Position numbers and translations under genes: made by a program
Virus record (IMG/VR): IMGVR_UViG_3300008108_000109
Span: 1-64,000 of that record
Direction: 5' to 3' (one strand)
Length of the DNA: 64,000 nt
Source of the DNA: a virus
Shown: positions 22,001 through 61,032 of the stretch, in pieces
How positions within the stretch are numbered: the first letter of the stretch is position 1
Layout: each line of letters begins with the position of its first letter
The notes under the pieces: model-generated
The model's database searches: none
What the model was told of the DNA's origin: nothing
What the model saw: the letters and a program-made list of their open reading frames with translations, nothing else

Positions 22001-25000
22001 TTACAGTGATTCTACAGAAGGAGATATAACCACTGCATCATCTTATAATCAATTCAACTATTGTGAGTTGCCATTAATAAAAAATAACGATAAACTTACA
22101 GATATTTTAGACATTAGGCCAAGAGTTCGTAGATTTAATTCGGATTCAACAAACTACTCTCCATTTGAATTTTCATCTCGTAGTTTTTCTGATGGTACAA
22201 ACTCTGCAAAAAATATATTAGCTTCTGACGAATCAATTATTCTGACATATTCACATTATCTACCAAGAATTGATAAACTATATCTAAAAATAGATGGAGG
22301 ATTTCAACTAATAAAAGGTGTTCCATCAGAAACACCACTTCCACCGATTCCATTAGAAGATTGTTTAGAAGTTGCAACTATAAACTTACCGCCATATATT
22401 TGTAACACAGAAAACGTACAAATTTCATTAAACAGCTATAAGAGATATCGAATGCAAGATATCTCTCTACTAGAGGATAGGATTAAAAATCTGGAGTATT
22501 ATACTGCATTATCCTTATTGGAATCTAAAACTGAATCTCTATTCATTCCAGATGAAAATGGTTTGACCAGATTTAAGAGTGGAATTTATGTTGACAATTT
22601 TAGTAATACAAAATCGCAGTTAAAATTAGGAAAAGTTACTAATAGTATTGACCCAGAAAATCTTGAATTGAGACCTTCTCACTTCACAACATCTGTTGAC
22701 CTGTTATTGGGATCTAGATCTCTCCTTGGAATTGGTACAACAGCAAGTCCAACTGCAGATTCTGCATTTGTAACTGATATTATTGGTTCAAATATTAGAA
22801 GGACAGGTCAGTTAATAACATTAGATTATGGTGAATATTTGCAATTTGCACAACCATTTGCAACTAGAGTGGAAAATGTAACTCCCTATTTGGTTGTTAC
22901 TTATAGTGGTAATATTGTACTATTCCCATCTTCAGATATTTGGGTAGATCAAGTTAGATTACAACCACTTAGAATAAACGTAGATGATTATACTCAAACA
23001 AGACTTCAATTGGAATATGCTGGGTATGATCAGCAAACTGGTTTAGGTCCAGTTCGTTGGGGGGCATGGCAAGCAACTTGGACTGGATCTAGCACATCAT
23101 CAACCGCAAATACTGTTGTAACATCTACAAGCACACAAAACACTGGAAGTGCTTTAGTAACAACAAACCAGTTGCAAACAACTACTGTTACCACAACTAC
23201 AAGAACTGGAACTGAAAATAGAAGCGGTACTCAACTTAGAGTTTCTGAACAAGTGGAAACTACAAACGAAGGAGACCGAGTTGTAAGTACATCAATTATT
23301 CCATTCATGAGGTCGAGAAACGTTGAATTTACTGGTAGAAAATTTAGACCATATTCAAGACTGTATGGATTTTTTGATGGAACGGATATGAATTCGTTCA
23401 TAATTCCAAAATTAATTGAAATTAGAATGATTAGTGGATCTTTCGCAGTTGGAGAACTTGTAACTGGAACAATGACTACTGGTTCTACAACCGTAACGAC
23501 TGGTTCTACACCAAGAATATCATTCAGAGTTGCAAAATCAAATCATAAGTATGGACCAATAACAAATCCAACAGATGTATATGCTACAAGTCCATATGAT
23601 GAAGATTATATAATACCAGAAAATTATTCTAGCTCTAGTATTATTCTAAATGTAGATACAAGATCGTTAGCAGAAAGTAATCAATCTTTATATTCTGGTT
23701 TTATTAGAACTGGAATGAGATTAAGAAGTGCTTCTGCAGAAGCAGAAGTTATTGATGTCAGATTGTTTAGCGATAACGTTGGAACTGTAATAGGTTCATT
23801 CTTTATACCAGATCCAAATCTACCCTCAAATCCATCATTTGAGGTTGGAACCAAGGTCTTTAGATTGACAACTCAAATATCAAATAGTCAGGTTGGAGGA
23901 CTAACTTCAAGTTCTGGAGAGGAGTCTTACTTTGCATCTGGAACTATCAATAACATGCAAGAGACTATTAGATCTACTAGAAAACCAAGATATGACGTAG
24001 TTGCTACTAGTGAATCAAGACCTGCAGTTGATGTACAATCAACTACTACAGTAACAAACTCCACTACAACTAGTTCGACACCATTACCTCCTCCTCCTCC
24101 ACCACCACCGCCTCCATCAAACCCATCACCAAGACCAGTACCAACTGCTCCTGGTCCAGCACCAGCACCAAGACCAGCACCAGCGCCGCAACCAGCTCCT
24201 CAACCAGCGCCGCAGCCACGACCTCAACCAGCACCTGCACCCCGTCGAGGCGGAAAAGATCCTTTAGCACAATCATTTACAATTACTGATGATGGTGGTG
24301 CATTTATTACTTCAATAGAAATATTCTTTAGGACAAAGGATCCATTACTACCAGTAACAGTACAATTGCGTCCAATGGAAAAAGGAATTCCTTCAGAACA
24401 AATTTATCCATTTGGAGAAGCAATTGTAGAATCTGCAGATATAATTGAAACTTCTGATGCAACTCAACCAACTAAAGTTACTTTCCCAGCACCAGTATAC
24501 TTACATCCAAATACTGATCATGCAGTAGTCCTTCTTTCAAATTCAAATGAATATACTGTATGGATTTCTAGAATGGGTGAAACTGATATTACTACATTAT
24601 TACAACCAGAATCTAGACAGGTTGTTGTTTCAGCACAACCATATCTTGGATCTCTATTTAAATCACAAAATGGTTCAAACTGGTCACCAAGTCAGTACGA
24701 AGATTTGAAATTTAATTTATATTCTGCTGGATTTTTATCCGAATCTGGATCGGTGTCATTCTATAATCCAGAATTAAACACTGGCAATAGGCAAATAGCA
24801 ACTTTAGTAAGAGACCCTCTTGAATTTGATGCTAAAAAAATAATTATTACTACAGACAATATTATTAATACTTCATCGATTGTTGTCGGTAACACTATAA
24901 TCCAACAAAATAATAATGTTCGTGGAGATTATGTTGGTGCGGGTGGATCTGCAAGTGGTTCTTTAACAATTGTAAATTCTGGAATTGGATATACTCCATC

Positions 25001-26744
25001 TAATGGAACTTCATTTACTTTTAATGATGTACCATTAATTTCATTTAGTGGAAATGGAAAGAATGCAACTGCAGATATCACTATAGGTCAAGCGGGTGGT
25101 GTAAATGGAGTTGCTGTTGCAGCAACTATTAGAAATGGTGGATTTGGGTATCAAGTTGGAGATGTATTAACTGTATCATCTATTGGCAATGATTCTCTTG
25201 GCAAAAACCTTCAATTATCACTTTCTAGTATTGTTGGAGTAAATCAATTAATACTTGACAATGTTCAAGGTGATTTTGAGATAAACGCATCTAAACCATT
25301 ACAATATGTAAGTTCAACAACTGGTATTACTACAATACTTAATGCTAGTGGATCAAATTCAATTGTAAGTGATTTTGACCAAGCATCTTTATCTGAAGAT
25401 GGTCTTCATATTAAAGTTAATCATAAAAATCATGGAATGCACTCAACAACCAATGTTGTTAAAATTAGTGGTGTAAAAGGTGATAGTAAACCAACTACAC
25501 TAACTGGAGATTATGGAAACTCTGATTCTGGTCCTATTAGTATTGCAAATACTTCAGGATTTGCAACTTTTGAAAATGTATCGGTTGGAGCAACAAATCC
25601 AGGATATGCGCTTCTTGATAATGAGATTATTTCATATACTGGCGTTCAAAATGGTCAACTCATAGGAATTACAAGATCGGTAGATGGTTCTGGTGCATAT
25701 TCATATCCAACTAGGACTAGCATTCAAAAATATGAAAATAATGGAATTTCTTTAAGAAGAATTAATAGATTGCACTATTTACAAGATGCTTTGGTTGCAA
25801 GACCAATTGAACTTGATAGTTATTATATTAGAATCAATACCGCTGAAAACGGTGTTGATAGAAATAGTGGACTTGGATTCCCTAAACTGTATATTAATTC
25901 ATCGAAGTCAACAGGTGGAGATGCAGTACAAGCAACACAGAATATTCAATATGAAACTGTTAATCCAATAGTTCAAACAATGGCATTACCAGGAACTTCT
26001 ATTAAAGCATCTTTAAAAGGAATTACTGGCACAAGTGTTGATGGTAGCGAAACTTCTTTCTTAGAAACAGAATCTACCCCAATCAATTTGAATGAAAATA
26101 CATACTTACCAGAACCAAGAATTATTGCATCTAGAGTTAATGAATTGCAGCAAACAACTAGTCTTCCTGCAAATAAATCTATGGAGATGACACTTACATT
26201 ATCTACATCTAACTCTAAAATTTCTCCAGTAATTGATTTAGATCGTGTTGGTATCGTACTGACCACAAATAGAGTTGATAATCCAGTAACTGATTACATT
26301 AATGATCCTAGAGTATCTTCATTAATTGATGATCCAAATTCTTTCATATATGCAAACCAACCAATTGAATTGGAAAATGCAGCCACATCTATAAAAGTTA
26401 TATTTGCTGGTTACATTAATACCTATAATGATGTAAGAGTATTTTATGCAATTAGTAATGATCCATCAACTGAGTTTATATATTATCCATTCCCTGGTTA
26501 TGACAACCTAGATGTAAATGGTAACATTATTGACAAAAACCAAAATAGTGGAAGACCTGACAAAAATGTTCCAAAGAGTGATGTTTTATCGGCAGATTCC
26601 TCTAAATTGGAATATAAAGAATATGAATTTAGTATTGATAGTTTACCAGAGTTTAGATACTTTACAATTAAAATTATTGGATCATCTACAAATCAAGCAT
26701 ATCCACCAAGAATCAAAGATCTGAGAGTTCTTGCTTTAGCATAA
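19098..26744 (+). CDS. Giant DUF4815-type virion structural protein, 2548 aa
   Basis: The N-terminus (PYFDDFDPNKGFYKVLFKPG, IQSRELTSLQSILQNQIEQLG, about residue 10-55) matches what I know as DUF4815 of large phage tail proteins. This start is shared by tail-periphery proteins of T4-like cyanophages, which lack clear gp9-gp12. Later parts include a Thr-rich segment (about residue 1340-1390) and a long proline-rich linker (about residue 1663-1716; nine consecutive prolines, then PAP and PQP repeats). After the linker comes a conserved block (KDPLAQSFTITDDGGAFITS) found in many phage tip proteins. The C-terminal half carries GxGY repeats (near 24979 and 25135) and an NHGMHS motif (near 25431). 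It is probably a peripheral baseplate or fibre protein; the exact T4 counterpart is unknown. Confidence 0.8.
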   Translation: MPQETNLNVSPYFDDFDPNKGFYKVLFKPGLPIQSRELTSLQSILQNQIEQLGTHLFKEGSVVIPGQINYNNTIFAVEIENDYLGVPISSYAADLVNVYIRGQNSNVKAKIVFSVGPEYSQRGYYTLFVSYVSTGINGKEVFDDNETLTLESNLSSSVINFQSGQGFAITAATNSTSIGSAVFLSEGVYYLRGTFVKVDAQTLILDAHNQFPTYRVGLEIFEDIITSGFDSSLTDNAKGFNNYAAPGADRLKITAVLTKKPLESDKNENFVELLVVRDGNIQHIEDKVKYNELAEELARRTFNESGNFYVKPFTIHARESLNDRKGNNGIFLKGQLTYNNNVPSDDLGTYKISPGKAFIRGFEVDSRTVHYLDFEKTRTTKKLEDQAVNYYTGPTLSLNRVIGAPRIGFSTSSIISLRDSRIGVTSTTESGKEIGIARVYDYALESGSYSSVAGVLNEWDISMYDIQTYTELTLNEAITLTAPTYIEGKSSGASGHLRFNTTTGIVTAYGTKGSFIKGEKLIFNGIDSNRIITNPIEYKISDVKSLYSSVGTGQTFNGDTKVSTVLTVGSVTISPKSGTAPGISTVTNNRIDFRAIVKTGDLVAFTNTLLTNTSVKTYAKVSSIIDRNNITIVGITTVTNINDGGLPTSSIAPTDFEILGTSLRSSTDNTLYTPLPKKFIASVDLTKSNLSIKKEFNVIITANATNTIQAGTDESFLPFDEERYVLINSTGGFEELTEDKFRFSNGGKELRIFGLNVAGSARLIATMKKINVTNKVKSLNKTNSIIVNKSKLSASGIGSTTLDDGLTYGSYGYGLRVQDKEICLLEPDVTKVYAVYEANDTNNPTLPTISLFNLDGPTGKVDDFIIGEEIVGSSSGAAAIYVEKTATSTIGLVYLNDLRFEIGESVRSETSGISGTINDFDPGDENIIDRFNLDSGQRETICDYSRLVRKANSKDPRRKLRIIYESASYSDSTEGDITTASSYNQFNYCELPLIKNNDKLTDILDIRPRVRRFNSDSTNYSPFEFSSRSFSDGTNSAKNILASDESIILTYSHYLPRIDKLYLKIDGGFQLIKGVPSETPLPPIPLEDCLEVATINLPPYICNTENVQISLNSYKRYRMQDISLLEDRIKNLEYYTALSLLESKTESLFIPDENGLTRFKSGIYVDNFSNTKSQLKLGKVTNSIDPENLELRPSHFTTSVDLLLGSRSLLGIGTTASPTADSAFVTDIIGSNIRRTGQLITLDYGEYLQFAQPFATRVENVTPYLVVTYSGNIVLFPSSDIWVDQVRLQPLRINVDDYTQTRLQLEYAGYDQQTGLGPVRWGAWQATWTGSSTSSTANTVVTSTSTQNTGSALVTTNQLQTTTVTTTTRTGTENRSGTQLRVSEQVETTNEGDRVVSTSIIPFMRSRNVEFTGRKFRPYSRLYGFFDGTDMNSFIIPKLIEIRMISGSFAVGELVTGTMTTGSTTVTTGSTPRISFRVAKSNHKYGPITNPTDVYATSPYDEDYIIPENYSSSSIILNVDTRSLAESNQSLYSGFIRTGMRLRSASAEAEVIDVRLFSDNVGTVIGSFFIPDPNLPSNPSFEVGTKVFRLTTQISNSQVGGLTSSSGEESYFASGTINNMQETIRSTRKPRYDVVATSESRPAVDVQSTTTVTNSTTTSSTPLPPPPPPPPPPSNPSPRPVPTAPGPAPAPRPAPAPQPAPQPAPQPRPQPAPAPRRGGKDPLAQSFTITDDGGAFITSIEIFFRTKDPLLPVTVQLRPMEKGIPSEQIYPFGEAIVESADIIETSDATQPTKVTFPAPVYLHPNTDHAVVLLSNSNEYTVWISRMGETDITTLLQPESRQVVVSAQPYLGSLFKSQNGSNWSPSQYEDLKFNLYSAGFLSESGSVSFYNPELNTGNRQIATLVRDPLEFDAKKIIITTDNIINTSSIVVGNTIIQQNNNVRGDYVGAGGSASGSLTIVNSGIGYTPSNGTSFTFNDVPLISFSGNGKNATADITIGQAGGVNGVAVAATIRNGGFGYQVGDVLTVSSIGNDSLGKNLQLSLSSIVGVNQLILDNVQGDFEINASKPLQYVSSTTGITTILNASGSNSIVSDFDQASLSEDGLHIKVNHKNHGMHSTTNVVKISGVKGDSKPTTLTGDYGNSDSGPISIANTSGFATFENVSVGATNPGYALLDNEIISYTGVQNGQLIGITRSVDGSGAYSYPTRTSIQKYENNGISLRRINRLHYLQDALVARPIELDSYYIRINTAENGVDRNSGLGFPKLYINSSKSTGGDAVQATQNIQYETVNPIVQTMALPGTSIKASLKGITGTSVDGSETSFLETESTPINLNENTYLPEPRIIASRVNELQQTTSLPANKSMEMTLTLSTSNSKISPVIDLDRVGIVLTTNRVDNPVTDYINDPRVSSLIDDPNSFIYANQPIELENAATSIKVIFAGYINTYNDVRVFYAISNDPSTEFIYYPFPGYDNLDVNGNIIDKNQNSGRPDKNVPKSDVLSADSSKLEYKEYEFSIDSLPEFRYFTIKIIGSSTNQAYPPRIKDLRVLALA

Positions 26745-37934: not shown

Positions 37935-39572
37935 ATGGCAAAACTATTTGGATTCTCTATAGAGGATAATAGTAAAAAATCACCAGGAGTGGTCTCCCCC
38001 GTACCTCAAAATAATGAGGACGGGGTTGACTATTATCTAACTAGTGGATTTTTTGGGTCGTATGTAGATATTGAAGGTGTATATAAAACAGAATATGATT
38101 TAATTAAAAGATACAGAGAGATGGCTTTACATCCAGAAGTGGATGGTGCAATTGAAGATATTGTTAATGAAGCAATCGTAAGTGATACTAATGATAGTCC
38201 CGTTCAAATAGATTTAGATAACTTAAGTGCCAGTGATGGACTTAAGAAAAAGATACGAGAAGAATTTAAATATATTTTAGAAATGATGGACTTTGATAAA
38301 AAAAGTCATGAGATTTATAGGAATTGGTATGTTGATGGTAGATTATATTATCATAAGGTAATTGATTTAAAAAATCCTCAAGAAGGAATTCAAGAATTGA
38401 GATATATTGATGCTCTTAAAATGCGTCATATTAGACAGGCTGCAAAAAATAAAAAAGATGATGCTAGACTATCTCCATCTGGAGAAAAAAATCCATTAGA
38501 TTCTGGATTCCCAGATATTCAAGAATATTTTCTTTATAACAATTCATCAAACCAACTTGGGGTTATTAGTGGCGGTAATGCAACCCAAGGAATTAAATTT
38601 TCAAAAGACTCTATCACATATTGCACTTCTGGTCTTGTTGATAGAAATAAAAATCTAACGTTGTCATATTTACACAAAGCAATTAAATCTCTCAATCAAC
38701 TTCGTATGATTGAAGATAGTCTTGTTATTTACAGATTATCTCGTGCCCCAGAACGTAGAATATTTTATATTGATGTGGGCAATCTTCCAAAGATGAAAGC
38801 GGAGCAATACCTCCGTGATGTAATGATGAGATATAGAAACAAACTTGTATATGATGCAAATACGGGTGAGATCCGTGATGATAAAAAATACATGAGTATG
38901 CTTGAAGATTTTTGGCTTCCAAGAAGAGAAGGTGGAAGAGGAACTGAAATCTCAACACTTCCTGGTGGACAAAATCTTGGTGAATTATCAGATATTAAAT
39001 ACTTCCAAGAAAAATTATATCGATCACTTAACGTCCCTTCGTCAAGAATTGGTGGGCAAGAAGGTTTTAATTTAGGTCGTTCTTCTGAGATTTTAAGAGA
39101 TGAACTTAAGTTTACAAAATTTGTTGGTAGACTTAGAAAAAGATTTTCTAATATGTTCAACGACATGTTAAGAACTCAATTACTTTTAAAAAATATTGTT
39201 AGTCCAGAAGATTGGGAATTAATGGAAGAGCATATTCAATATGATTTCTTATATGATAATCATTTTTCTGAACTTAAAGATGCAGAATTAATGACTGAAA
39301 GACTGAATATTGCTGCTACTGCAGAACCTTATATTGGTAAGTATTATTCCCAAGATTATGTAAGAAGAAAGATTCTTAGACAAACAGATGAAGAAATTAT
39401 TGAGCAGGATAAATTAATCAAACAAGAAATTAAAAAGGGCATCATACCAGATCCAAATGCACCAATTGATCCAGTAACTGGACAACCAATGCAAACTCCT
39501 GCTGGTGGAGATTCTATCGACGGTGCTTCTGGTGGAGTTCCAGTAGATCCAGAGGCACCAACAATAACTTAA
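37935..39572 (+). CDS. 20: Portal protein gp20
   Basis: 545 residues; T4 gp20 is 524. Typical segments are YREMALHPEVDGAIEDIVNEAIV (about residue 57-79), LPKMKAEQYLRDVMMRYRNKLVYD (about residue 283-306) and FWLPRREGGRGTEISTLPGG (about residue 326-345), the marker used to type cyanophages. The dodecameric portal sits at the packaging vertex, engages gp17 and later the neck. The C-terminus is Pro/Gly-rich (DPNAPIDPVTGQPMQTP). The next gene on this strand is not a head gene as in T4 but an oxygenase-like protein. Confidence 0.93.
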   Translation: MAKLFGFSIEDNSKKSPGVVSPVPQNNEDGVDYYLTSGFFGSYVDIEGVYKTEYDLIKRYREMALHPEVDGAIEDIVNEAIVSDTNDSPVQIDLDNLSASDGLKKKIREEFKYILEMMDFDKKSHEIYRNWYVDGRLYYHKVIDLKNPQEGIQELRYIDALKMRHIRQAAKNKKDDARLSPSGEKNPLDSGFPDIQEYFLYNNSSNQLGVISGGNATQGIKFSKDSITYCTSGLVDRNKNLTLSYLHKAIKSLNQLRMIEDSLVIYRLSRAPERRIFYIDVGNLPKMKAEQYLRDVMMRYRNKLVYDANTGEIRDDKKYMSMLEDFWLPRREGGRGTEISTLPGGQNLGELSDIKYFQEKLYRSLNVPSSRIGGQEGFNLGRSSEILRDELKFTKFVGRLRKRFSNMFNDMLRTQLLLKNIVSPEDWELMEEHIQYDFLYDNHFSELKDAELMTERLNIAATAEPYIGKYYSQDYVRRKILRQTDEEIIEQDKLIKQEIKKGIIPDPNAPIDPVTGQPMQTPAGGDSIDGASGGVPVDPEAPTIT

Positions 39573-39586
39573 AATATTTTTTTATT

Positions 39587-40249
39587 ATGAATAGATATCA
39601 TAGATTTTTAGATATTAAGAATTACATTCCTAATATCGATACTTCAAAGTATCAAACTGAAGGAATGAGATGGCCAGAATTTCATAAACAACTACAATTT
39701 AGTGACCTAAACAATGATAAAATTTTGCCATGGTTGAATAGTTTAGGATTTACTTCACACTGGATTGAATTTTTTTATACACCACCTCATGATGATGGAG
39801 TTATACACTCTGACAATGTTTATTATGCCGATTGGGCAAAATTAATATTTCAATTTGGTGCTAAGGGTAGCACCATGAGATGGTGGAGTTCTGATATGGT
39901 ATTAAGAGTAAGTACTAGTGCTGAGCAAGTTAGTTCAACAATAATTCCAGAAAGAAGTCAATATACTGTTGGCGACAGAACAAATGATCATTATCATGGA
40001 CAAGTTTTAGTAAGTAAAGAAGAATACTGTAAAAAAGAATATGAAGTTGAAATTGGAACTTGTGGATTAGTAAATGTTGGTCCTCTTCATAGTTCACACA
40101 ATCCAACAGGAGATAAAAGATTTACAGTAACTATAGCACTAATTGACAAAGATAAAGATTATGAACATAGAATTTTATGGGATGAAGCACTAGAAGCGTT
40201 CAAACCTTACATAATTGATTCTTCAATAGACCTTTGCGACGCAGTATAA
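39587..40249 (+). CDS. Putative 2-oxoglutarate/Fe(II)-dependent oxygenase
   Basis: 220 residues. A possible iron-binding facial triad is HSD (H74, D76) plus H168 or H171 in GPLHSSHNPTG, followed by R178 in KRFTVTIAL, the place of the 2-oxoglutarate-binding Arg. The strand AKLIFQFGAKGSTMRWW between them fits a double-stranded beta-helix. The assignment is from motif spacing only; a related non-catalytic cupin cannot be excluded. The substrate is unknown. It follows gp20 by 14 bases on the plus strand and overlaps the convergent radical SAM gene by 50 bases. It may belong functionally with that cassette (inference). Confidence 0.55.
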   Translation: MNRYHRFLDIKNYIPNIDTSKYQTEGMRWPEFHKQLQFSDLNNDKILPWLNSLGFTSHWIEFFYTPPHDDGVIHSDNVYYADWAKLIFQFGAKGSTMRWWSSDMVLRVSTSAEQVSSTIIPERSQYTVGDRTNDHYHGQVLVSKEEYCKKEYEVEIGTCGLVNVGPLHSSHNPTGDKRFTVTIALIDKDKDYEHRILWDEALEAFKPYIIDSSIDLCDAV

Positions 40250-41966
40250 AAACTGTGTGGGGGTCGTTTTTGTCAAATTCTTTAAACTCAGTATCTACCA
40301 GATATTTACTATCAGAGCATTCAAGATAAAATGGATAGATTACATTCTCATCAAAAATGAATGCTCTTTGTAGTTTTAATATATCAGAATCTACAGAACA
40401 AAATAAATTACTCACATCTTCTGCCATTTTAAATATCATATTTTTATTATTGAACATAAAAGCAAAACTTCCTGCATGTAAGGTATGTCCATGCTTGCCA
40501 GTATCAAGTATTTTTCCAGTTTTCATATAATGACTTACTGCCCGCTCAATCTCTCTATAGTGATTGCCAATGATACCATTATCATTTTTAACATATTCAA
40601 ATAAAGAATCATAAAATTTTCTGTATGATATGTTTAGATCATTGAAGAAGTGCTTTGCAATTAATTGAGTATATCCTGCTATATGGAATTGAATTATTAA
40701 CCATCCATACATATATGCTTCAATTAGTTCATCATTGCTCATAGTATTTGTTTCTGATATTAGCTCTATAACTTCTTTTATATCATATTCATCATTGCTG
40801 AATGACATGTAATCTTCTGCCTTAATGGTTTTAATACCGAAAATTTCTCTAGAAGTCGCACTATTTAATTCAGTATCTCCAAACATTTGGCAGAACCAAA
40901 CGTCAATTGATTCATGTTGCCCACACTCAAGAATTTTTGAAAATCCATCTTTCCAACTATCTAGAGTTTCATCTGGAAGACCAAGGATAAGTTCAGTATA
41001 TGTTTTTACTCCATACTTTTTACTTTTCTCAATTTGTTCTGAGATTTTATTAATACTCATATTTTTACGCTTAATTGACTTAAGCGTTGGTTCATTCATG
41101 GTTTGAACACTTAATGTTACACCTCTACTAATGTCTCCAAGGATTTGTGCAATCTCAAAAATAACTTCGGTAGAATTTTTTGAGTATTGGACATTGATTG
41201 CTTCCAGTTTTCCTTTATCTGCTGCTTTTCTAAACAATTTTGCAATCTCAACATCACGTTCTTTGAACATACCAAAATTTGCATCAGCATTAAAAATGAA
41301 TCCAACATTATGCTTTGCTGCCCAATCAATATCTTCTTCAACTCTCGTTATATCAAAGTGCTTTACTTTTTGATATGTCATTCCACCCCAATCACAATAA
41401 GTGCATCTGTGGGGACATCCGCGATTTGTTTCTATAGTCATTGACCATAAAACATTTGGATTATCATCAATAATTTTGTCGAAGATTCCCATTTGATAGG
41501 GACTAGGAAAATCTAAAGACTCAATTCTTTGTTTTACATATAGTCTTTCAAATGATTCTTTATTTGCAATTTTTCTAAGGAGATCTAAAAATGCCTCTTC
41601 ACCTTCAGATACTATAATACAATCAATAAAATCATACTCCAATAATTTACGAGTTGCTTGAGGACCACCAAATTCAATAATACAATTTGGATATTTTTCT
41701 TTAATTAATTTTGCTACATGTAAATTATACTGTTCATTCCATATGTAACAACTAAATGCACAAATTGAAGGGTTATCCAATCTATCAATAAGTTCTTTTG
41801 GATTCTCTCTTTTAAAAATTAAGTCTTTTAAATTATATTCTTCAATAATATCATTGAACTGAGAACAGTATGCCCACAAGCAACCAACACTATATGGTAA
41901 CCAATAAGTATCTTCATTTCTAACTTCAACCGCATATTGTGGTTGAAACATGTAAAGATTTTTCAT
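40200..41966 (-). CDS. B12-domain-type radical SAM protein, copy C
   Basis: 588 residues. The N-terminal 150 residues resemble a cobalamin-binding-type Rossmann domain (ICAFSCYIWNEQYN, then IIEFGGPQA), but no DxHxxG histidine motif is seen, so cobalamin binding would have to be His-off. The radical SAM core has CPHRCTYC (C184, C188, C191) for the 4Fe-4S cluster, followed by LSVQTMNEPTLKSIKRKN and TYTELILGLPDETLDSWKDG. A C-terminal region of about 230 residues is family-specific. The enzyme type generates a 5'-deoxyadenosyl radical; the substrate is unknown. It is the last gene of a minus-strand operon, its ATG overlapping the stop of copy B, and its 3' end overlaps the convergent oxygenase gene. 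Part of the DNA is identical to copy B. Confidence 0.8.
   Translation of the reverse strand: MKNLYMFQPQYAVEVRNEDTYWLPYSVGCLWAYCSQFNDIIEEYNLKDLIFKRENPKELIDRLDNPSICAFSCYIWNEQYNLHVAKLIKEKYPNCIIEFGGPQATRKLLEYDFIDCIIVSEGEEAFLDLLRKIANKESFERLYVKQRIESLDFPSPYQMGIFDKIIDDNPNVLWSMTIETNRGCPHRCTYCDWGGMTYQKVKHFDITRVEEDIDWAAKHNVGFIFNADANFGMFKERDVEIAKLFRKAADKGKLEAINVQYSKNSTEVIFEIAQILGDISRGVTLSVQTMNEPTLKSIKRKNMSINKISEQIEKSKKYGVKTYTELILGLPDETLDSWKDGFSKILECGQHESIDVWFCQMFGDTELNSATSREIFGIKTIKAEDYMSFSNDEYDIKEVIELISETNTMSNDELIEAYMYGWLIIQFHIAGYTQLIAKHFFNDLNISYRKFYDSLFEYVKNDNGIIGNHYREIERAVSHYMKTGKILDTGKHGHTLHAGSFAFMFNNKNMIFKMAEDVSNLFCSVDSDILKLQRAFIFDENVIYPFYLECSDSKYLVDTEFKEFDKNDPHTVFILRRKGLLKNQLCKV
40237..40271 (+). 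terminator. Possible intrinsic terminator after the oxygenase gene
   Basis: CGAC and GCAGT pair with ACTGT and GTCG around an A-rich loop, with one G-T wobble and an unpaired G-rich segment, followed by five T at 40267-40271. It lies where plus-strand transcripts would run into the convergent radical SAM genes. The stem is imperfect. Confidence 0.35.
41652..41714 (-). repeat. 63-bp direct repeat, unit in radical SAM copy C
   Basis: These 63 bases are identical to 43445-43507 in copy B. They encode the IIEFGGPQAT region of the N-terminal domain. The equivalent stretch in copy A (around 45810) has diverged. Confidence 0.85.
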
Positions 41967-43762
41967 AATTTTACTATGGTGTTTTTATCAAGACCTTTTC
42001 TTTTTAATACCCACATATCATACCTTTCACTTTCTTCTCGGGCATTGCAAATATTATATTGGGTCTCCTTATCTTCCCAAGTATCCAAATCAAACGGTAA
42101 AGATAATTTAATAGGATATTCTATATTTGGATTATATACAAATTCTTTTTGCATTGTAAGAATAGAATCTTCAACTTCCCAACAATTATTAATTAACTCA
42201 AATGTGTGTTCTTTATTATCCCAAAATAATTTATAGTCTGTTGCCATAGACATTTCTAACGCATGTCCAGTACTGTCTATAACTTTACCAGTAGTCATGT
42301 AATTGTATATTTTATCATAAAGATTTTTATAGTGATTGCCAAATAATACTGAATCATTTTTTATACAATCAAATAATTTATCATAAAATTTTCTGTAGGA
42401 AATTTGTTTTTTATTTCTATAATATTTTGATACTATTTGAGAGTATCCATTAATATGAAATTGAACAATCATCCAACTGTAAAGATATGCTTCAACTAAT
42501 TCTTTAGTGTTTAATGTATTTGTTGCTTTAATAATCTCTACTGTTTCTTTTATCTCGACACAATCTTTTGTGTTTGTGAAGGAAACATAATCTTCTGCAT
42601 GAACAGTTTCAATGCCATAAACTTCTCTTGATAAAGCACTATTAAGTTCTGTGTTACCAAACACCTGACAAAACCAAACATCAATTGATTCGTGTTGTCC
42701 ACATTCAAGTAATGTACAAAGTCCTTCTTTCCAAGATTCTAAGGTTTCGTCTGGAAGACCAAGAATTAATTCCGAATATGTACGAACCCCCCATTTTTTT
42801 GCTAGTTGCATATGTCCTGCTAAATCTTTTATATGAAGATTCTTTCTTTTAATTGCTTTTAGTGTTGGTTGGTTCATACTCTGAACACTTACGGTAACAC
42901 CTCTTCTTGCAAATCCTCCCATTTCTTTTGTAATTTCAAAAACAACTTCATTAGAATTTTTAGAATATTGCAGAACAATATCTTCTATTTTGCTATTGGG
43001 ATGATCTCCAGCACTTTTTAACATTTTGGCAATTTCCAAATCTCTCTCAGCAAATATGCCAAAGTTTGCATCTGTCATCATTAAGAATGCAACATTATTA
43101 TCTCGTGCCCAGTTAATATCGTCTTGAACTCGTTGTAAGTTAAATTTAGATATTTTACTCATTGTTGTTCCACCCCAATCACAATAAGTGCATCTGTGGG
43201 GACATCCTCTATTGGATTCAATTACTGTTGCCCAAAGAGTATTTGGATTTTCAGAAACTATTTTATCAAATATTCCAGACTGATATGGACTTGGAAATTC
43301 TAAATCAGTTATTCTTCCTCTCTCATAAACTTTATCAAGTTCATCTCCACGTATACACTTTGTCAATAGATCCAAAAAATTACATTCCCCATCACCACCA
43401 AGCATAATACAATCAATAAAAGAATTATCCTCCAACATTTTTTTAGTTGCTTGAGGACCACCAAATTCAATAATACAATTTGGATATTTTTCTTTAATTA
43501 ATTTTGCAATCGTTAGACAATATTTTTCATTCCAAATATAACAACTAAAAGCACATATGAACGGATCTTCTAATCTTTCTAACAATTTTTCTGGATGTTC
43601 TCTTTTAAAAATTATATCTTTTAGATCATAAAATGAATTAATGTAGTCATACTGAGAACAGTAACTCCACAAACAAGCAACACTATATGGTAACCAATAA
43701 TTATCTTCTTTCCTTACTTCAACAGAATATTGCGGTTGAAATAGATATATATTATTCTTCAT
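41963..43762 (-). CDS. B12-domain-type radical SAM protein, copy B
   Basis: 599 residues, paralogous to its two neighbours and closest to copy C (shared start MKN..Y.FQPQY.VEVR, and a 63-bp identical DNA stretch). The N-terminal Rossmann-like part contains CAFSCYIWNEKY and IIEFGGPQATK without a DxHxxG motif. The cluster motif is CPHRCTYC (C187, C191, C194), then VSVQSMNQPTLKAIKRKN and YSELILGLPDETLESWKEG. The ATG lies within the 3' end of the glycosyltransferase gene (11-base overlap), and the stop overlaps the start of copy C by four bases. It is therefore one transcription unit. The function of the triplication is not known; different substrates or sequential steps are possible. Confidence 0.8.
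   Translation of the reverse strand: MKNNIYLFQPQYSVEVRKEDNYWLPYSVACLWSYCSQYDYINSFYDLKDIIFKREHPEKLLERLEDPFICAFSCYIWNEKYCLTIAKLIKEKYPNCIIEFGGPQATKKMLEDNSFIDCIMLGGDGECNFLDLLTKCIRGDELDKVYERGRITDLEFPSPYQSGIFDKIVSENPNTLWATVIESNRGCPHRCTYCDWGGTTMSKISKFNLQRVQDDINWARDNNVAFLMMTDANFGIFAERDLEIAKMLKSAGDHPNSKIEDIVLQYSKNSNEVVFEITKEMGGFARRGVTVSVQSMNQPTLKAIKRKNLHIKDLAGHMQLAKKWGVRTYSELILGLPDETLESWKEGLCTLLECGQHESIDVWFCQVFGNTELNSALSREVYGIETVHAEDYVSFTNTKDCVEIKETVEIIKATNTLNTKELVEAYLYSWMIVQFHINGYSQIVSKYYRNKKQISYRKFYDKLFDCIKNDSVLFGNHYKNLYDKIYNYMTTGKVIDSTGHALEMSMATDYKLFWDNKEHTFELINNCWEVEDSILTMQKEFVYNPNIEYPIKLSLPFDLDTWEDKETQYNICNAREESERYDMWVLKRKGLDKNTIVKL
43445..43507 (-). repeat. 63-bp direct repeat, unit in radical SAM copy B
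   Basis: Identical to 41652-41714 in copy C, 1793 bases away in the same orientation. A second identical stretch encoding the cluster-binding motif is shared around 41391 and 43171. This suggests recent duplication or gene conversion. Confidence 0.85.
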
Positions 43763-44545
43763 AATTTAATCTTTTTTCCAACGCTTTATCGTAAAAATAT
43801 TTATTGTCCCATCTGCGGATATTTCTTTCCATAAGTATATCATTATCTTTTCCATATGTAAAAAATTCATCTAAAGTAAAATTATCTTTATCGTGATGCC
43901 ACCACTCATGATAGGCTTCATAACATTTTACAAAACTAAGTTTTGGATTCCAGGATAATTCTCCAAAAGGACCTTGATGACTGATTCCCGCAAAATATGG
44001 ATTAATAGGAATAAGAGGAATTGAATAACAATTTCCAGATTGATTTATATAGTAATCTGGACCTCCAGAAGTTCCGTCATAATTTTTATCATCATGTATT
44101 CCAGAATTTCTATTTAAATAAAAAGAATTTGAAATGTTATAATCAAACTTAAATTTACCACCAAAAAAATGGAGATCTAAAAGTTTTTCAACATATTCTC
44201 TTTTTAGTAAAGATGCTCCTAATGAATATTCTGGTTGGGTTGGATGCAAATAAAATGGAATTTTGTAAGGAGTTTCAAATCCAAGTTGAATGCAATCCCA
44301 ATCATATGGAAGTCTATCCATAAATTCTTCCCATTTAAAATGCCACAAAGGCATTAGAGATAAATCATAATCATCTTCCATAAAAATAAAAAATGGATCA
44401 GTTGTTGTTAATATCCATTCCTCAAAAAATGTAAAAATAAGAGAAGCATACCAATTTATCCACTGGCAAGTATCTTTTGAATATGATCCAGATAATTTAT
44501 TTAAAAAATCTTTTGGTGGTAAATAATTGGAAAATTATCTAACAT
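43752..44545 (-). pseudogene. GT25-like glycosyltransferase, apparently frameshifted near its start
   Basis: The body (from 44534 down to 43752) encodes a glycosyltransferase-like protein: a FFIFMEDDYDLSL motif like the EDD of GT25 enzymes, LGFETPYKIP, and GASLLKREYVEKLLDL. The only ATG in this frame is inside the motif (44381) and would give 209 residues lacking the N-terminal strand. Upstream the frame stays open to 44534 with sensible sequence (NYLPPKDFLNKLSGSYSKD). An ATG at 44545, overlapping the stop of copy A, begins MLDNF in another frame and stops 14 codons later. Adding one T to the TTTT run (44531-44534, minus strand) joins both parts into 265 residues. So either a single-base deletion, a sequence error or a recoding event is present. 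A canonical slippery heptamer is not seen. Confidence 0.7.
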
Positions 44546-46116
44546 AGTGCTTCGGTAAGTCTTCTAGATAGTTCAAATTGAGTTTCTTCACTAGTTAATA
44601 AAGATCTGTCGTTAATATTATAAAGTTCAAAATTATGACCTCTTTTATTTTGTGATAATGTTCCAGTATTCAGATACTGTGTAATTTGTTCTTTTGTTTC
44701 AAAATACTCATCTCTTACTGGATTGTCAAAAGATAAAAGGACTTCTGTTAATAATTCATAGAATTTTCTATAAGTCATTCCACTATTTTTTGAAATCTCT
44801 TTAGTGTGACCATTATAGTGAAAATATCTAATTACCCAGAAGTACATGTAAGCTTCAATCATTTCTTCCGTTGACATAGTATTTGTTTTATTAACAATTA
44901 CAGAATATTCAACAAATCCATGATCTTCAGTATCACCATCAATAGATTCAATTGGCATATAGTTTAATGCATTGACACTTTCTATTCCATATAAGTTTTT
45001 TGATAACTCTGTTGCCAATTCACTATTATTAAGAAGTTGACAGAACCAAACTTCCAAAGAATTATGTTGTCCACATTCCATTACAAGCGATATTCCATCT
45101 TTCCAAGATTCTAAGGTTTCTTCTGGTAAACCTAAAATCATTTCAGTATAAGTTTTAACGTTGTATTTTTGACTCAACTCCATATGACTTTTTAAGTTGT
45201 TTATATGAAGATTTTTTCTTTTGATTGCTTTTAATGTTGGTTGGTTTACACTTTGAACACTAATAGTAATTCCTCTTAGAGTATACACATCAAGTAAAGA
45301 TGCCATTTTAAAAACAACTTCTGTAGAATTTTTGGCATATTGCAAGATAATCTCTTTGACTGAACTATTGTCATCAAACTTTCTTTTCATTAATGCAGCA
45401 ATTTCAAGATCCCTTTCTCTAAACATTCCAAAGTTTGCATCTGCAAGGAATATTGCATCAACATTATGAGTACGTATCCATTCAAGATCTGCTTCAACTC
45501 TGCTCATATCAAAAAAACCAATACTACTTAATATAGTTCCACCCCAATCACAAAATGTACATCTATGAGGGCAACCTCTATTTGTTTCTAAAGTAGTTGC
45601 CCATTGATAATCTGGATGTTTTTTAACTAACATGTCAAAAATTCCAGATTGATATGGACTTGGATAGTCTAAAGACTCTAATCTTTTTTTATCATAAACT
45701 TTAGGTATCTCTTGTTTATTTAAAATACGAGTTAAAATATCGTAAAAACTTTCTTCTCCTTCAGCAACTATAATAGTATCAATAAAATCATATTGATCTT
45801 GCATTTTTACACATGCCTGTGGTCCACCAAATTCAATAATACAATTTGGGAATTTTTCTTTGATAAGTTTGGCAATACCTAAACAATATTGTTCATTCCA
45901 AACGTAAGTACTAAATGCACATATTGCTGGGTTATCTAATCTTTCTAACAATTCTTTAGGATTCTCTCTCTTAAAAATTACATCCTTTAAAATATAATTT
46001 TCTTGTATTTCTGGAAATTGGCTACAGTAGCTCCATATGCAAGATACTGCATAAGGTAACCAATATTTTATCTTCCGATTACGCTTATACTGTGGTTGAA
46101 ACAAGTAGACATTCAT
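44539..46116 (-). CDS. B12-domain-type radical SAM protein, copy A
   Basis: 525 residues from the ATG at 46116; this start aligns with the paralogs (MNVYLFQPQY), whereas the frame reaches a TTG at 46128. It has AFSTYVWNEQYC and IIEFGGPQAC in the N-terminal domain, and CPHRCTFC (C182, C186, C189 counted from the 46116 start) for the iron-sulfur cluster. SVQSVNQPTLKAIKRKN and TEMILGLPEETLESWKDG follow. It is the first gene of the minus-strand cassette and the most diverged of the three copies. The C-terminal region is shorter than in copies B and C. Its stop overlaps the apparent start of the glycosyltransferase gene. The operon promoter must lie in the short divergent gap 46117-46176, where I cannot place it with confidence. 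Confidence 0.8.
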   Translation of the reverse strand: MNVYLFQPQYKRNRKIKYWLPYAVSCIWSYCSQFPEIQENYILKDVIFKRENPKELLERLDNPAICAFSTYVWNEQYCLGIAKLIKEKFPNCIIEFGGPQACVKMQDQYDFIDTIIVAEGEESFYDILTRILNKQEIPKVYDKKRLESLDYPSPYQSGIFDMLVKKHPDYQWATTLETNRGCPHRCTFCDWGGTILSSIGFFDMSRVEADLEWIRTHNVDAIFLADANFGMFRERDLEIAALMKRKFDDNSSVKEIILQYAKNSTEVVFKMASLLDVYTLRGITISVQSVNQPTLKAIKRKNLHINNLKSHMELSQKYNVKTYTEMILGLPEETLESWKDGISLVMECGQHNSLEVWFCQLLNNSELATELSKNLYGIESVNALNYMPIESIDGDTEDHGFVEYSVIVNKTNTMSTEEMIEAYMYFWVIRYFHYNGHTKEISKNSGMTYRKFYELLTEVLLSFDNPVRDEYFETKEQITQYLNTGTLSQNKRGHNFELYNINDRSLLTSEETQFELSRRLTEALC

Positions 46117-46143
46117 AACCAAAATCAATTTATTATATTTATT

Positions 46144-46150
46144 CTAAATA
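46144..46150 (+). promoter_or_regulatory. Late promoter box CTAAATA before the gp67-like gene
   Basis: CTAAATA lies 26 bases before the ATG at 46177, the same distance as the boxes before gp8 and gp20. It restarts plus-strand late transcription after the reverse cassette. Confidence 0.55.
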
Positions 46151-46176
46151 ATGATGGTAGTTAATTTATTAGTAAA

Positions 46177-46332
46177 ATGGAAGATCTCTTAGACATGATT
46201 GTTAGTGATGAAGCTCCACATGCAATCTCTGACAAAATTAAAGAATTGATCTATGCAAAATCTGCAGAAAAGATTGAAGCAATTAGACCAAACGTATCAA
46301 ACGCATTATTTAATTCAGAAGAAGAAGAATAA
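46177..46332 (+). CDS. 67: Prohead core protein gp67-like, 51 aa
   Basis: 51 residues, too short for most gene finders. It starts MEDLLDMIVSDEAP and ends in an acidic FNSEEEE tail. T4 has the small prohead core protein gp67 (80 aa) between gp20 and gp21, and short proteins beginning MEDLLDMIV occupy this place in T4-like cyanophages. The acidic helical character fits a scaffold core peptide cut by the gp21 protease. The assignment combines position and N-terminal pattern; the protein is shorter than in T4. Confidence 0.65.
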   Translation: MEDLLDMIVSDEAPHAISDKIKELIYAKSAEKIEAIRPNVSNALFNSEEEE

Positions 46333-46346
46333 TAAATAACTAAATA
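46330..46346 (+). promoter_or_regulatory. Double late box TAATAAATA / CTAAATA
   Basis: TAATAAATA (46330-46338) overlaps the stop of the gp67-like gene and CTAAATA (46340-46346) follows. The next ATG is at 46361. Two boxes in tandem are seen only here in the window. Confidence 0.5.
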
Positions 46347-46360
46347 GTCTGTTTATAATA

Positions 46361-46636
46361 ATGTCAACACGAATTAAAATTCTGGGGCAGGAATCTGCTC
46401 TTCCAACTACAACGGGAGCGGCGACTAGCTTTAGTGAGGCAACGGTTGTTCGTTTAGTTAATAGTTCAACCTCAGCAGATTATGTAGTTACAGTTGTTGC
46501 AAGTCAAAGTGGGTCTGTTATTGGATCATTTACTTTAATGAGAGCAACTTCTGAACTGTTAGAAAAGTTACCAACACATTGCGTTTACGCTTCAAACGCA
46601 TCTGTTTTGGGTGCAAAAGTAGGATTCACAAACTAA
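46361..46636 (+). CDS. Small beta-rich protein between gp67-like and gp21, 91 aa
   Basis: 91 residues, rich in Ser, Thr and Val with few charged residues (STSADYVVTVVASQSGSVIGSFTLM), suggesting an all-beta fold. In T4, gp68 is at this position, but the sequence here shows no resemblance I can recognise to that core protein, so the T4 name is not given. The pattern and its own late box suggest a small virion protein, for example a head or tail decoration. A longer frame starting at 46579 in another phase is a shadow. Confidence 0.6.
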   Translation: MSTRIKILGQESALPTTTGAATSFSEATVVRLVNSSTSADYVVTVVASQSGSVIGSFTLMRATSELLEKLPTHCVYASNASVLGAKVGFTN

Positions 46637-46642
46637 ACCACA

Positions 46643-47296
46643 ATGAAACTCATCAGAGAAGAAATCGAAAAGGTAGAAGTTCTTACCGAATCGGTAAATG
46701 GCAAAAAGAATCTCTTTATTCAAGGAGTATTTCTACAAAGCGAGATGGTAAATCGCAATGGTAGAATGTATCCATTCTCTATTATGGAAAGAGAAGTAAA
46801 GAGATACACAAATGATTATGTTAAAAAAGGACGTGCTTTGGGTGAATTAGGACACCCAGATGGTCCAACTGTTAACCTCGATAGAGTTTCACATAAAATT
46901 ACCGAACTGAAGCAAGACGGTAATAACTTTGTTGGTAAAGCACAAATCTTACACACTCCAATGGGTAAGATTGCAGAAGCATTACTTAAAGATGGAGTAA
47001 CTCTTGGTGTTTCGTCTCGTGGTATTGGATCACTAAGAGAAAATATCAAAGGTGGTTATAAGGAAGTTGGTGAAGACTTCATGCTTGCAACTGCAGCAGA
47101 TATTGTAGCTGATCCATCTGCTCCTGATGCTTTTGTTCAAGGTGTTATGGAAGGTAAAGAGTGGGTTTGGGATGGAGGAATTCTTCGTGAAAAACTCGCA
47201 CAACAGGCAAGAGATAGGGTTGAAGATTTAGTTAGAAGAAGAGAATTAGAAGAACATAAGTTAAACTTATTCAATGACTTTTTAAATTCTCTTTGA
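46643..47296 (+). CDS. 21: Prohead core protease gp21
   Basis: 217 residues, like T4 gp21 (212 aa). The catalytic residues of this herpesvirus-protease-like family can be seen: His in ELGHPDGP (H71), Ser in GVSSRG (S124 or S125) and Asp in ATAADIVADPSAPDA (D153). The N-terminal region contains the SEMVNRNGRMYP motif (about residue 33-44) typical of the family. The enzyme cleaves scaffold and capsid proteins during head maturation. gp22 follows after a 72-base gap with a late box. Confidence 0.92.
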   Translation: MKLIREEIEKVEVLTESVNGKKNLFIQGVFLQSEMVNRNGRMYPFSIMEREVKRYTNDYVKKGRALGELGHPDGPTVNLDRVSHKITELKQDGNNFVGKAQILHTPMGKIAEALLKDGVTLGVSSRGIGSLRENIKGGYKEVGEDFMLATAADIVADPSAPDAFVQGVMEGKEWVWDGGILREKLAQQARDRVEDLVRRRELEEHKLNLFNDFLNSL

Positions 47297-59919: not shown

Positions 59920-61032
59920 ATGCCTCGTAAATCATCTGTGAACGACAAAGCACTTTTTGCAAGCATTCAAGAATTGTATGGTTCTGAAATTACTTCTGGA
60001 GATCTCAGGGGGTTTTGTGCTTCTAAGGGTTTGAATTACCAAACTGTAACTCGCCGCCTTGAACAATTTAAAACTTCTCGTGGTCGTTGGAACTTGGAAG
60101 TGACTCAAGAACGTGTTGAAGAAATTGAGCGTTCTTTTAGTGCTCCTTCTGTTCTTCCTTCTGTCGAGCAAAATCTTATTCCCGATAAAGATGATACCTT
60201 CGTCAAGTTTGGTAACTTTAACGATATTAAAAAAATTATTCAGTCCCATATCTTTTATCCTACGTTCATTACGGGTCTGTCGGGTAACGGTAAAACGTTC
60301 AGTGTGGAGCAAGCGTGTGCTCAACTGGGGCGTGAACTGATTCGTGTAAACATTACGATTGAGACTGATGAAGACGATCTTATTGGTGGATTCCGCCTTG
60401 TTGATGGTGCTACTGTGTGGCATAACGGTCCAGTTATTGAAGCCCTTGAGCGTGGAGCGATCCTGCTCCTTGACGAGATTGACCTTGCCTCCAACAAAAT
60501 CCTTTGTCTACAATCCGTGTTAGAAGGTAAAGGTGTTTTTCTTAAAAAAATTGGTCGCTTTGTAAAACCTGCTGATGGGTTTAACGTTGTTGCCACTGCT
60601 AATACCAAAGGTAAGGGTAGTGATGATGGTCGCTTCATCGGCACCAATGTTCTCAATGAAGCATTCCTGGAGCGGTTCCCTGTGACCTTTGAGCAGTCCT
60701 ATCCTGCTCCTGCAACTGAGCAGAAGATTCTGGAAGGCATCGCTCTGGATCTTGGTGTGGAAGACCGTGACTTCTGTAAGCGTCTGGTTGACTGGGCAGA
60801 TATTATTCGTAAGACCTTTTACGATGGTGGTATTGATGAAATTATCAGCACCCGTCGTCTGGTTCATATCATCCGTGCCTATAGCATCTTCCAAGACAAA
60901 GCAAAGGCAATCCAAGTGTGTGTGAATCGCTTTGATGATGAGACCAAGCAATCGTTCTTGGAACTCTATGATAAAGTGGATGCCGACTTTGTGATGCCTT
61001 CTCAAGAAGTTGCTCAGGACGCTCCGTTCTGA
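59920..61032 (+). CDS. cobS: CobS-like MoxR-family AAA+ ATPase
   Basis: 370 residues. The N-terminal 60 residues (SGDLRGFCASKGLNYQTVTRRLEQF) look like a small helical DNA- or protein-binding region. The AAA+ core has Walker A GLSGNGKT (K125), Walker B LLLDEID (D185, E186), and a sensor region VVATANTKGKG. T4-like cyanophages encode this protein as CobS, named after the ATPase of the aerobic cobaltochelatase. In that enzyme CobS works with a VWA-containing CobT, and a VWA protein is encoded just upstream here. A role in cobalamin synthesis is not shown; a remodelling role is equally possible. A terminator follows. Confidence 0.85.
   Translation: MPRKSSVNDKALFASIQELYGSEITSGDLRGFCASKGLNYQTVTRRLEQFKTSRGRWNLEVTQERVEEIERSFSAPSVLPSVEQNLIPDKDDTFVKFGNFNDIKKIIQSHIFYPTFITGLSGNGKTFSVEQACAQLGRELIRVNITIETDEDDLIGGFRLVDGATVWHNGPVIEALERGAILLLDEIDLASNKILCLQSVLEGKGVFLKKIGRFVKPADGFNVVATANTKGKGSDDGRFIGTNVLNEAFLERFPVTFEQSYPAPATEQKILEGIALDLGVEDRDFCKRLVDWADIIRKTFYDGGIDEIISTRRLVHIIRAYSIFQDKAKAIQVCVNRFDDETKQSFLELYDKVDADFVMPSQEVAQDAPF

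Follow-up and report, generated by a model that had tools for sequence, protein, structure and literature searches.

The cassette described here, a reverse-strand set of predicted cobalamin (B12)-dependent radical SAM methylase genes and a glycosyltransferase (GT) gene, is fixed in a clade of uncultured aquatic Kyanoviridae, T4-like phages of cyanobacteria, and whole cassette alleles have been exchanged between otherwise near-identical viruses. Our preferred reading, to which we give a probability of roughly 0.4, is that late-made B12-dependent C-methylation and glycosyl transfer together produce a variable glycan, with the virion as its most likely site and the host envelope as a possible one. 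The original prediction had the cassette modifying a glycan, lipid or protein; any of the three may be its target, and our choice of a glycan is a proposal only.

The source record (IMGVR_UViG_3300008108_000109) is a 65-kb uncultured virus fragment with T4-like late gene order, and the window, i.e., the whole stretch of DNA that was analyzed, is positions 1–64,000 of that record. The cassette spans 40200–46116 of the window, in reverse orientation within the gp20-gp21-gp22-gp23 order. The features of the locus, with the basis of each assignment in brackets, are as follows:

37935–39572, plus strand: gp20 portal gene, the conserved flank on one side
39587–40249, plus strand: g39, putative 2-oxoglutarate (2OG)/Fe(II) oxygenase, convergent neighbor of the cassette (invariant residues)
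40200–41966, minus strand: rS1, predicted B12/radical SAM enzyme, 588 aa, the constant cassette member (Pfam, NCBIfam, model)
41963–43762, minus strand: rS2, predicted B12/radical SAM enzyme, 599 aa, highly variable allele (Pfam, allele comparison)
43752–44545, minus strand: GT25-like glycosyltransferase, frame broken in this record (alignment, model of the copy in locus L008)
44539–46116, minus strand: rS3, third predicted B12/radical SAM paralogue, 525 aa, shortened C-terminus (Pfam, tree)
46136–46151, minus strand (cassette side): divergent late promoter motif TTATTTAGAATAAATA (exact match in the window)
46177–46333, plus strand: small acidic gene, gp67-like, that follows the divergent promoter and forms the plus-strand boundary (position, acidic composition)
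46361–46636, plus strand: g46, small gene, phrog_19805 (PHROGs), co-exchanged with the cassette in the L002/L014 pair
46643–47296, plus strand: gp21 prohead protease gene, the conserved flank on the other side

The minus-strand order between g39 and the gp67-like gene is rS1, rS2, the GT25-like gene and rS3. The expected placement of the cassette between gp20 and the gp67-like gene holds in that a reverse set of genes lies in the head operon, but g39 also intervenes, separating gp20 from the cassette and overlapping the end of rS1 by 50 nt. The gp67-like gene is named from its position and acidic composition only, PHROGs yielding families of unknown function for it. The overlapping starts and stops described earlier are found at rS1/rS2 (4 nt) and rS2/GT (11 nt), and the original GT start (44545) shares 7 nt with the rS3 stop, but this record has no intact overlapping GT. 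Read-through of the rS3 stop was considered and judged a spurious extension. Elsewhere the window holds two giant structural genes, at 4609–17475 (4288 aa) and 19098–26744 (2548 aa).

The three minus-strand radical SAM paralogues that had been foreseen are present (Pfam Radical_SAM, E = 3e-15, 2e-10, and 1e-12 for rS1, rS2, and rS3) and mutually about 50–55% identical. They carry the CPHRC(T)(Y/F)CDWGG motif, and the three cysteines of the radical SAM barrel (C184, C188, and C191, CxxxCxxC) are invariant in 31 homologues. Their N-terminal domain, first described as Rossmann-like, gives a weak B12-binding Rossmann domain match, and the common C-terminal region is indeed shared, except that rS3 is without the last 60–70 residues. 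A profile of the 31 viral homologues searched against all PDB chains returned TokK at E = 1.9e-111 and CysS at E = 1.6e-62, while an AlphaFold2 model of rS1 (pLDDT 86.8) gave Foldseek TM scores of 0.88 to TokK over the full length and 0.78 to CysS. The domain order in this model (Rossmann cobalamin-binding, radical SAM, C-terminal) matches TokK end to end. W76, N77 and GGP are invariant in the alignment of viral homologues, and rS1 W76 aligns on TokK Trp76; this bulky residue, like Trp75 in CysS, lies under the cobalt and blocks the lower ligand, i.e., the cobalamin is base-off (PMC12846815, PMC13331322). Base-off binding should tolerate pseudocobalamin, the form made by most cyanobacteria (PMC5816740).

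The best NCBIfam model for rS1, rS2, and rS3 is NF033712 (KedN5 family; E = 4e-55, 6e-44, and 6e-48), at scores of 187, 150, and 163 that miss its 700-bit cut-off and place the viral enzymes outside the named subfamily. Substrate-contact positions W271 and S273 of CysS are replaced in the viral enzymes, so that, with the KedN5 cut-off also missed, sequence reveals the class of these enzymes clearly but gives no reading of their substrate. By sequence and model we assign rS1, rS2, and rS3 to the TokK/CysS class of cobalamin-dependent radical SAM C-methyltransferases, which bears out the earlier description of radical SAM enzymes with a B12-type domain and places them in a methyltransferase class. 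For their predicted activity, methylation, one SAM would remethylate cob(I)alamin, from a second SAM would come a 5'-deoxyadenosyl radical to activate an sp3 carbon, and this carbon would then receive its methyl from methylcobalamin.

A GT25-like gene amid the paralogues had also been predicted, and a model of the intact L008 copy gives a GT-A fold of GT25 type, but the gene is not intact here. Relative to the copies in L008 and L001 (98% identical), 112 bp are missing at about 44516–44520; the loss shifts the frame and removes 37 residues, and the start at 44545 then opens a short dead frame. This loss may be either biological or an assembly fault, and because of the broken frame this virus may make a product without the glycosyl step. 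Most relatives have an intact GT, 290–326 aa in length. The best PDB matches of the L008 model (pLDDT 77, moderate) are mimivirus R655, COLGALT1 and a GT25 beta-1,4-GalT (E 4e-8 to 1e-4), the GT25 matches standing at a TM of about 0.45 and 13–16% identity. They came from the fold search alone: a GT profile found nothing among the sequences of solved structures, and Pfam gave no match for the window GT or for the intact L008 copy. Intact GT relatives match PHROG 2835 (E = 1e-29), and an EDDYD motif is invariant among the GT homologues. Some carriers are without the GT (L038, L039–L048) and others without rS2 (L011, L012, L050), so the cassette parts are separable.

The convergent neighbor g39 is found in most, not all, cassette loci. 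It has no Pfam or PHROG match and none among GenBank phages; H74, D76, H168, and R178 (HxD...H...R) are invariant in 27 homologues, including that of the distant phage contig L059, and g39 is likely to represent a new, putative 2OG/Fe(II) oxygenase family. A nucleotide-sugar epimerase is encoded elsewhere in the window, and in a Pfam tally of phage neighbors, in which most genes are unannotated, epimerases are weakly enriched near the cassette (8/107 close vs. 2/91 far). Collagen-like GXY repeats, a possible GT25 target, were not found among the virion proteins in the window. As a sole dedicated substrate g46 is ruled out, since it is missing from the interval of some carriers.

In IMG/VR, 67 loci encode rS1 relatives, nearly all at the gp20-gp21 site. 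A gp20-anchored search was used to avoid the bias of an rS1-based one. Where gp20 is at least 83% identical, all readable loci carry the cassette, as do 10 of 11 at the threshold of at least 82% (the exception, L173, stands at 82.5%); at 80–82% the cassette is found in 3 of 16 loci, and below 80% in 0 of 30. The gp20-gp21 interval measures 4.7–5.6 kb with the cassette and about 0.5–0.85 kb, or 2–4 kb with other genes, without it, and the Kyanoviridae isolates S-SCSM1, P-TIM68 and S-SRM01 have just two or three small genes there. Comparison of this interval across isolates and gp20-anchored loci finds the cassette missing from most relatives, in keeping with the original prediction, and a head-structure role common to all relatives is ruled out by this absence. 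Among 50,697 GenBank phage records there is no close homologue, the only matches being faecal contigs at 22–28% identity, so that the system is invisible to isolate work.

Membership in Kyanoviridae is drawn from the late-gene order, gp20 similarity to cultured members and a cobS-like gene in the window (CobS-like AAA ATPase, phrog_249, 59920–61032). psbA was not seen within this 65-kb fragment; the sister carriers L316 and L317 (records G001 and G002; 149 and 247 kb) encode psbA and psbD, and thus the carriers include cyanophages. In L171, L173, L190, L226, L316, and L317 the interval cargo includes a virion structural protein (phrog_1645, 431–641 aa) and a partner of about 106 aa (phrog_1742). 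Other cargo in the sister-lineage intervals indicates that the interval is a general insertion site. One rS1 relative (L047:4837–6651, 71% identical) lies amid replication genes (polymerase, UvsX-like, helicase), without rS2 or GT.

The exchange of alleles is clearest where the backbones agree. The larger contigs of L014 and L002 are near-identical over 43 kb (mostly 96–100%) with the cassette as the sole break; the flanking DNA is 99–100% identical on both sides, and rS1, rS2, and GT share 81, 59, and 54% at the amino acid level. L020 and L019 are near-identical over 49 kb (mostly 91–100%), again with the cassette as the sole break, with flanking proteins about 100% and rS1 98% identical, rS2 57% and GT 49%. 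L004 and L020, for their part, share an rS2 at 99% though their gp20 is 92% identical. Over all locus pairs with flanks 95–99.5% identical, rS2 falls below 70% in 24 of 39. Across 12 gp20 clusters there are 9 rS2 types (80% identity) and 10 GT types, the largest cluster holding three of each, and contigs L001, L003, and L017, which bear one IMG sample number, hold different alleles. What is new here is the exchange of whole alleles, the replaced proteins sharing 49–81%, and from such exchange on a constant backbone we infer diversifying selection, which would act on a product that has been overlooked. Recombination between the conserved flanks would swap alleles and keep the product diverse, different rS2/GT alleles would lead to chemically different decorations, and such diversity is expected if hosts or competing phages recognize the product.

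The methylases are under strong purifying selection (dN/dS 0.02–0.13; 0.024 for rS3 vs. L008), from which it follows that the alleles are kept functional; the GT values are 0.08–0.16. These selection data already disfavor the idea that the cassette is functionless cargo that fills the head and drifts, and the conserved promoter and fixation in the clade likewise stand against it. We regard it as highly improbable, even though the GT is broken in this record, some carriers are without parts, and the possibility has been raised that LPS genes in large cyanophages are stuffer DNA (PMC3037559).

With regard to origin, the notion of a recently acquired island had to be given up. In a quick tree of 77 proteins, with several long bacterial branches and with the best 80 loci of one scan as its bacterial sample, the 52 viral sequences all fall into a single clade (SH-aLRT 100) that includes no bacterial protein. 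The rS1 and rS2/rS3 genes are duplicates inside the cyanophage lineage, and the window rS3 groups with its ortholog, the partner gene of L317. Such a separation of viral from bacterial enzymes makes it unlikely that the genes were taken up recently from the host. For a cyanobacterial host in particular we reject recent capture, given the tree and a scan of 386 Cyanobacteriota genomes, of which just 5, each of at least 4.1 Mb, have a homologue at E < 1e-40, in every case a distant one. The dN/dS range of the methylases likewise argues against recent acquisition, and the source may have been an unsampled bacterial donor.

Homologues had been expected in surface polysaccharide clusters; in bacteria some do occupy NDP-sugar/polysaccharide neighborhoods, as single copies in NDP-sugar clusters of Elusimicrobia and Yanofskybacteria (L147 and L076, among the best 80 bacterial loci), but the wider neighborhood is mixed, with short-chain dehydrogenases as the commonest neighbor. 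Among the same best 80 loci, the closest bacterial relatives also include tandem arrays in gut Clostridia; L071, L073, and L074, the closest kin by score, have 3–4 TokK-like paralogues in a row, accompanied by a GT2-like gene and additional B12/radical SAM genes. On the 130-kb phage contig L059 (5502–17592), an rS1 relative lies beside a DegT-type aminotransferase, an epimerase, an amidinotransferase-like gene and several oxygenase-like genes.

At 46136–46151 the ATAAATA of TTATTTAGAATAAATA reads toward the cassette, while the other strand of the same site, CTAAATAA, faces the gp67-like gene and gp21. In the literature NATAAATA is given as the late promoter of cyanophages (PMC2984593). Among 27 distinct upstream regions of relatives, ATAAATA toward the cassette occurs in 23 (shuffle mean 1.9) and antisense CTAAATA also in 23 (shuffle mean 1.0), counts that reflect conservation and not 27 independent hits because the regions are related. 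Within the window ATAAATA is rarer than chance (18 vs. 38), yet it precedes the cassette, gp18, gp20, g46, gp22 and further late genes by 20–45 nt. On the basis of these motif matches and positions, the cassette is probably late-transcribed, divergently from gp67-gp21. Also new here, as far as the motif indicates, is a cyanophage late promoter that faces the cassette, with a second one reading in the opposite direction into the head genes.

A promoter that is late and not early argues against enzymes that make a small molecule, modified nucleotide or modified DNA base for counter-defence or competition, and no carrier-protein or base-modification gene adjoins the cassette. TokK and CysS are natural-product enzymes and the L059 homologue has the neighbors listed above, including aminotransferase, amidinotransferase-like and epimerase genes, but on balance this function seems quite improbable. 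We also find it unlikely, if somewhat less so, that the enzymes C-methylate a protein or peptide directly, e.g., a virion protein, with the GT acting separately. A precedent exists in methyl-coenzyme M reductase, the target of MgmA and Mmp10, and MgmA turns up in the fold search as a distant and weak match (TM 0.44); the late timing, the site beside portal and prohead genes and the carriers that hold methylases without a GT would suit such a role, whereas the cassette contains no RiPP or other precursor peptide and the closest solved relatives, TokK and CysS, use small natural-product substrates (PMC12846815).

The variable glycan that we favor is suggested by the GT partner, the late promoter and the site. 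The GT-A, GT25-like glycosyltransferase would act with the rS enzymes in most carriers, which makes a glycan with a C-methylated (branched) sugar, or a glycosylated C-methylated acceptor, the most likely product; to judge from late timing and position, it would most likely be placed on the new virion. Serotype-converting gtr cassettes also exchange alleles on a constant backbone, and the resemblance suggests that the cassette might instead alter the host envelope (LPS) late, blocking superinfection or the sticking of progeny to infected cells or debris, with allele diversity mirroring receptor diversity. We consider this possible but doubtful. The PHROG 2835 glucosyltransferase is classed as moron/host takeover, and marine phage GTs have been read as O-chain modifiers (PMC7029224); the late promoter speaks against such a role, and no flippase, polyprenyl carrier enzyme or membrane GT was found in the cassette (ORFs, Pfam, PHROGs). 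Of the genes that define a gtr cassette (a membrane GT, the gtrA flippase and the gtrB bactoprenol glucosyltransferase), none is present in this one.

Returning to a methylated glycan on the virion, natural-product pathways are the best-known setting of cobalamin-dependent radical SAM methylases, and a virus-only methylase radiation, fixed in a clade and apparently run from a late promoter, would mean that such chemistry also serves to tailor virions or surfaces. Tentatively, the locus may be one of allele-switching coat chemistry, in which a virus-specific branch of B12 methylases and a GT furnish the virion or cell surface with C-methylated sugars using host (pseudo)cobalamin. If this is true, cyanophages own a B12-consuming pathway in cobS-carrying genomes. 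All complete cyanomyovirus genomes have cobS, and PMC2984593 leaves unanswered what extra cobalamin does; with enzymes of the phage's own that would use cobalamin, this question becomes testable. CobS occurs in carriers and in G008, a phage without the cassette, alike, which rules it out as a carrier-specific marker, and the cassette therefore does not explain in general why cobS is there.

No account of this cassette turned up when the literature was searched for phage B12-dependent radical SAM methyltransferases. Radical SAM cassettes of marine T4-like phages are similar as variable cargo, and sections of PMC7029224 (on pelagimyophages) and PMC5332604 (with an environmental genome of 12 radical SAM genes) present them as such; those sections mention neither a B12 class nor allele exchange, and neither a late promoter nor a site in the head operon. 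The PHROG 2835/GT25 enzymes of cyanophages, mimivirus R655 and COLGALT1 resemble the cassette GT in fold and PHROG match, the EDDYD motif being invariant among the viral GTs, but the cassette GT is remote, lies outside Pfam and is found with B12 methylases. The methylcobalamin-dependent radical SAM C-methyltransferases of NF033712/KedN5 provide the best NCBIfam model, with the viral scores far below its cut-off. CysS (9n1b-9n1d), an iterative methyltransferase of cystobactamid, is of the same class and fold, with different residues at its two substrate contacts. TokK (7kdx/7kdy, Streptomyces), a class 1 cobalamin-dependent radical SAM methyltransferase of asparenomycin biosynthesis, shares the domain order, CxxxCxxC and Trp76 under the cobalt; the viral proteins, at 24% identity, have a shorter C-terminal part, and their genes stand two or three in tandem within a head operon, next to a GT gene.
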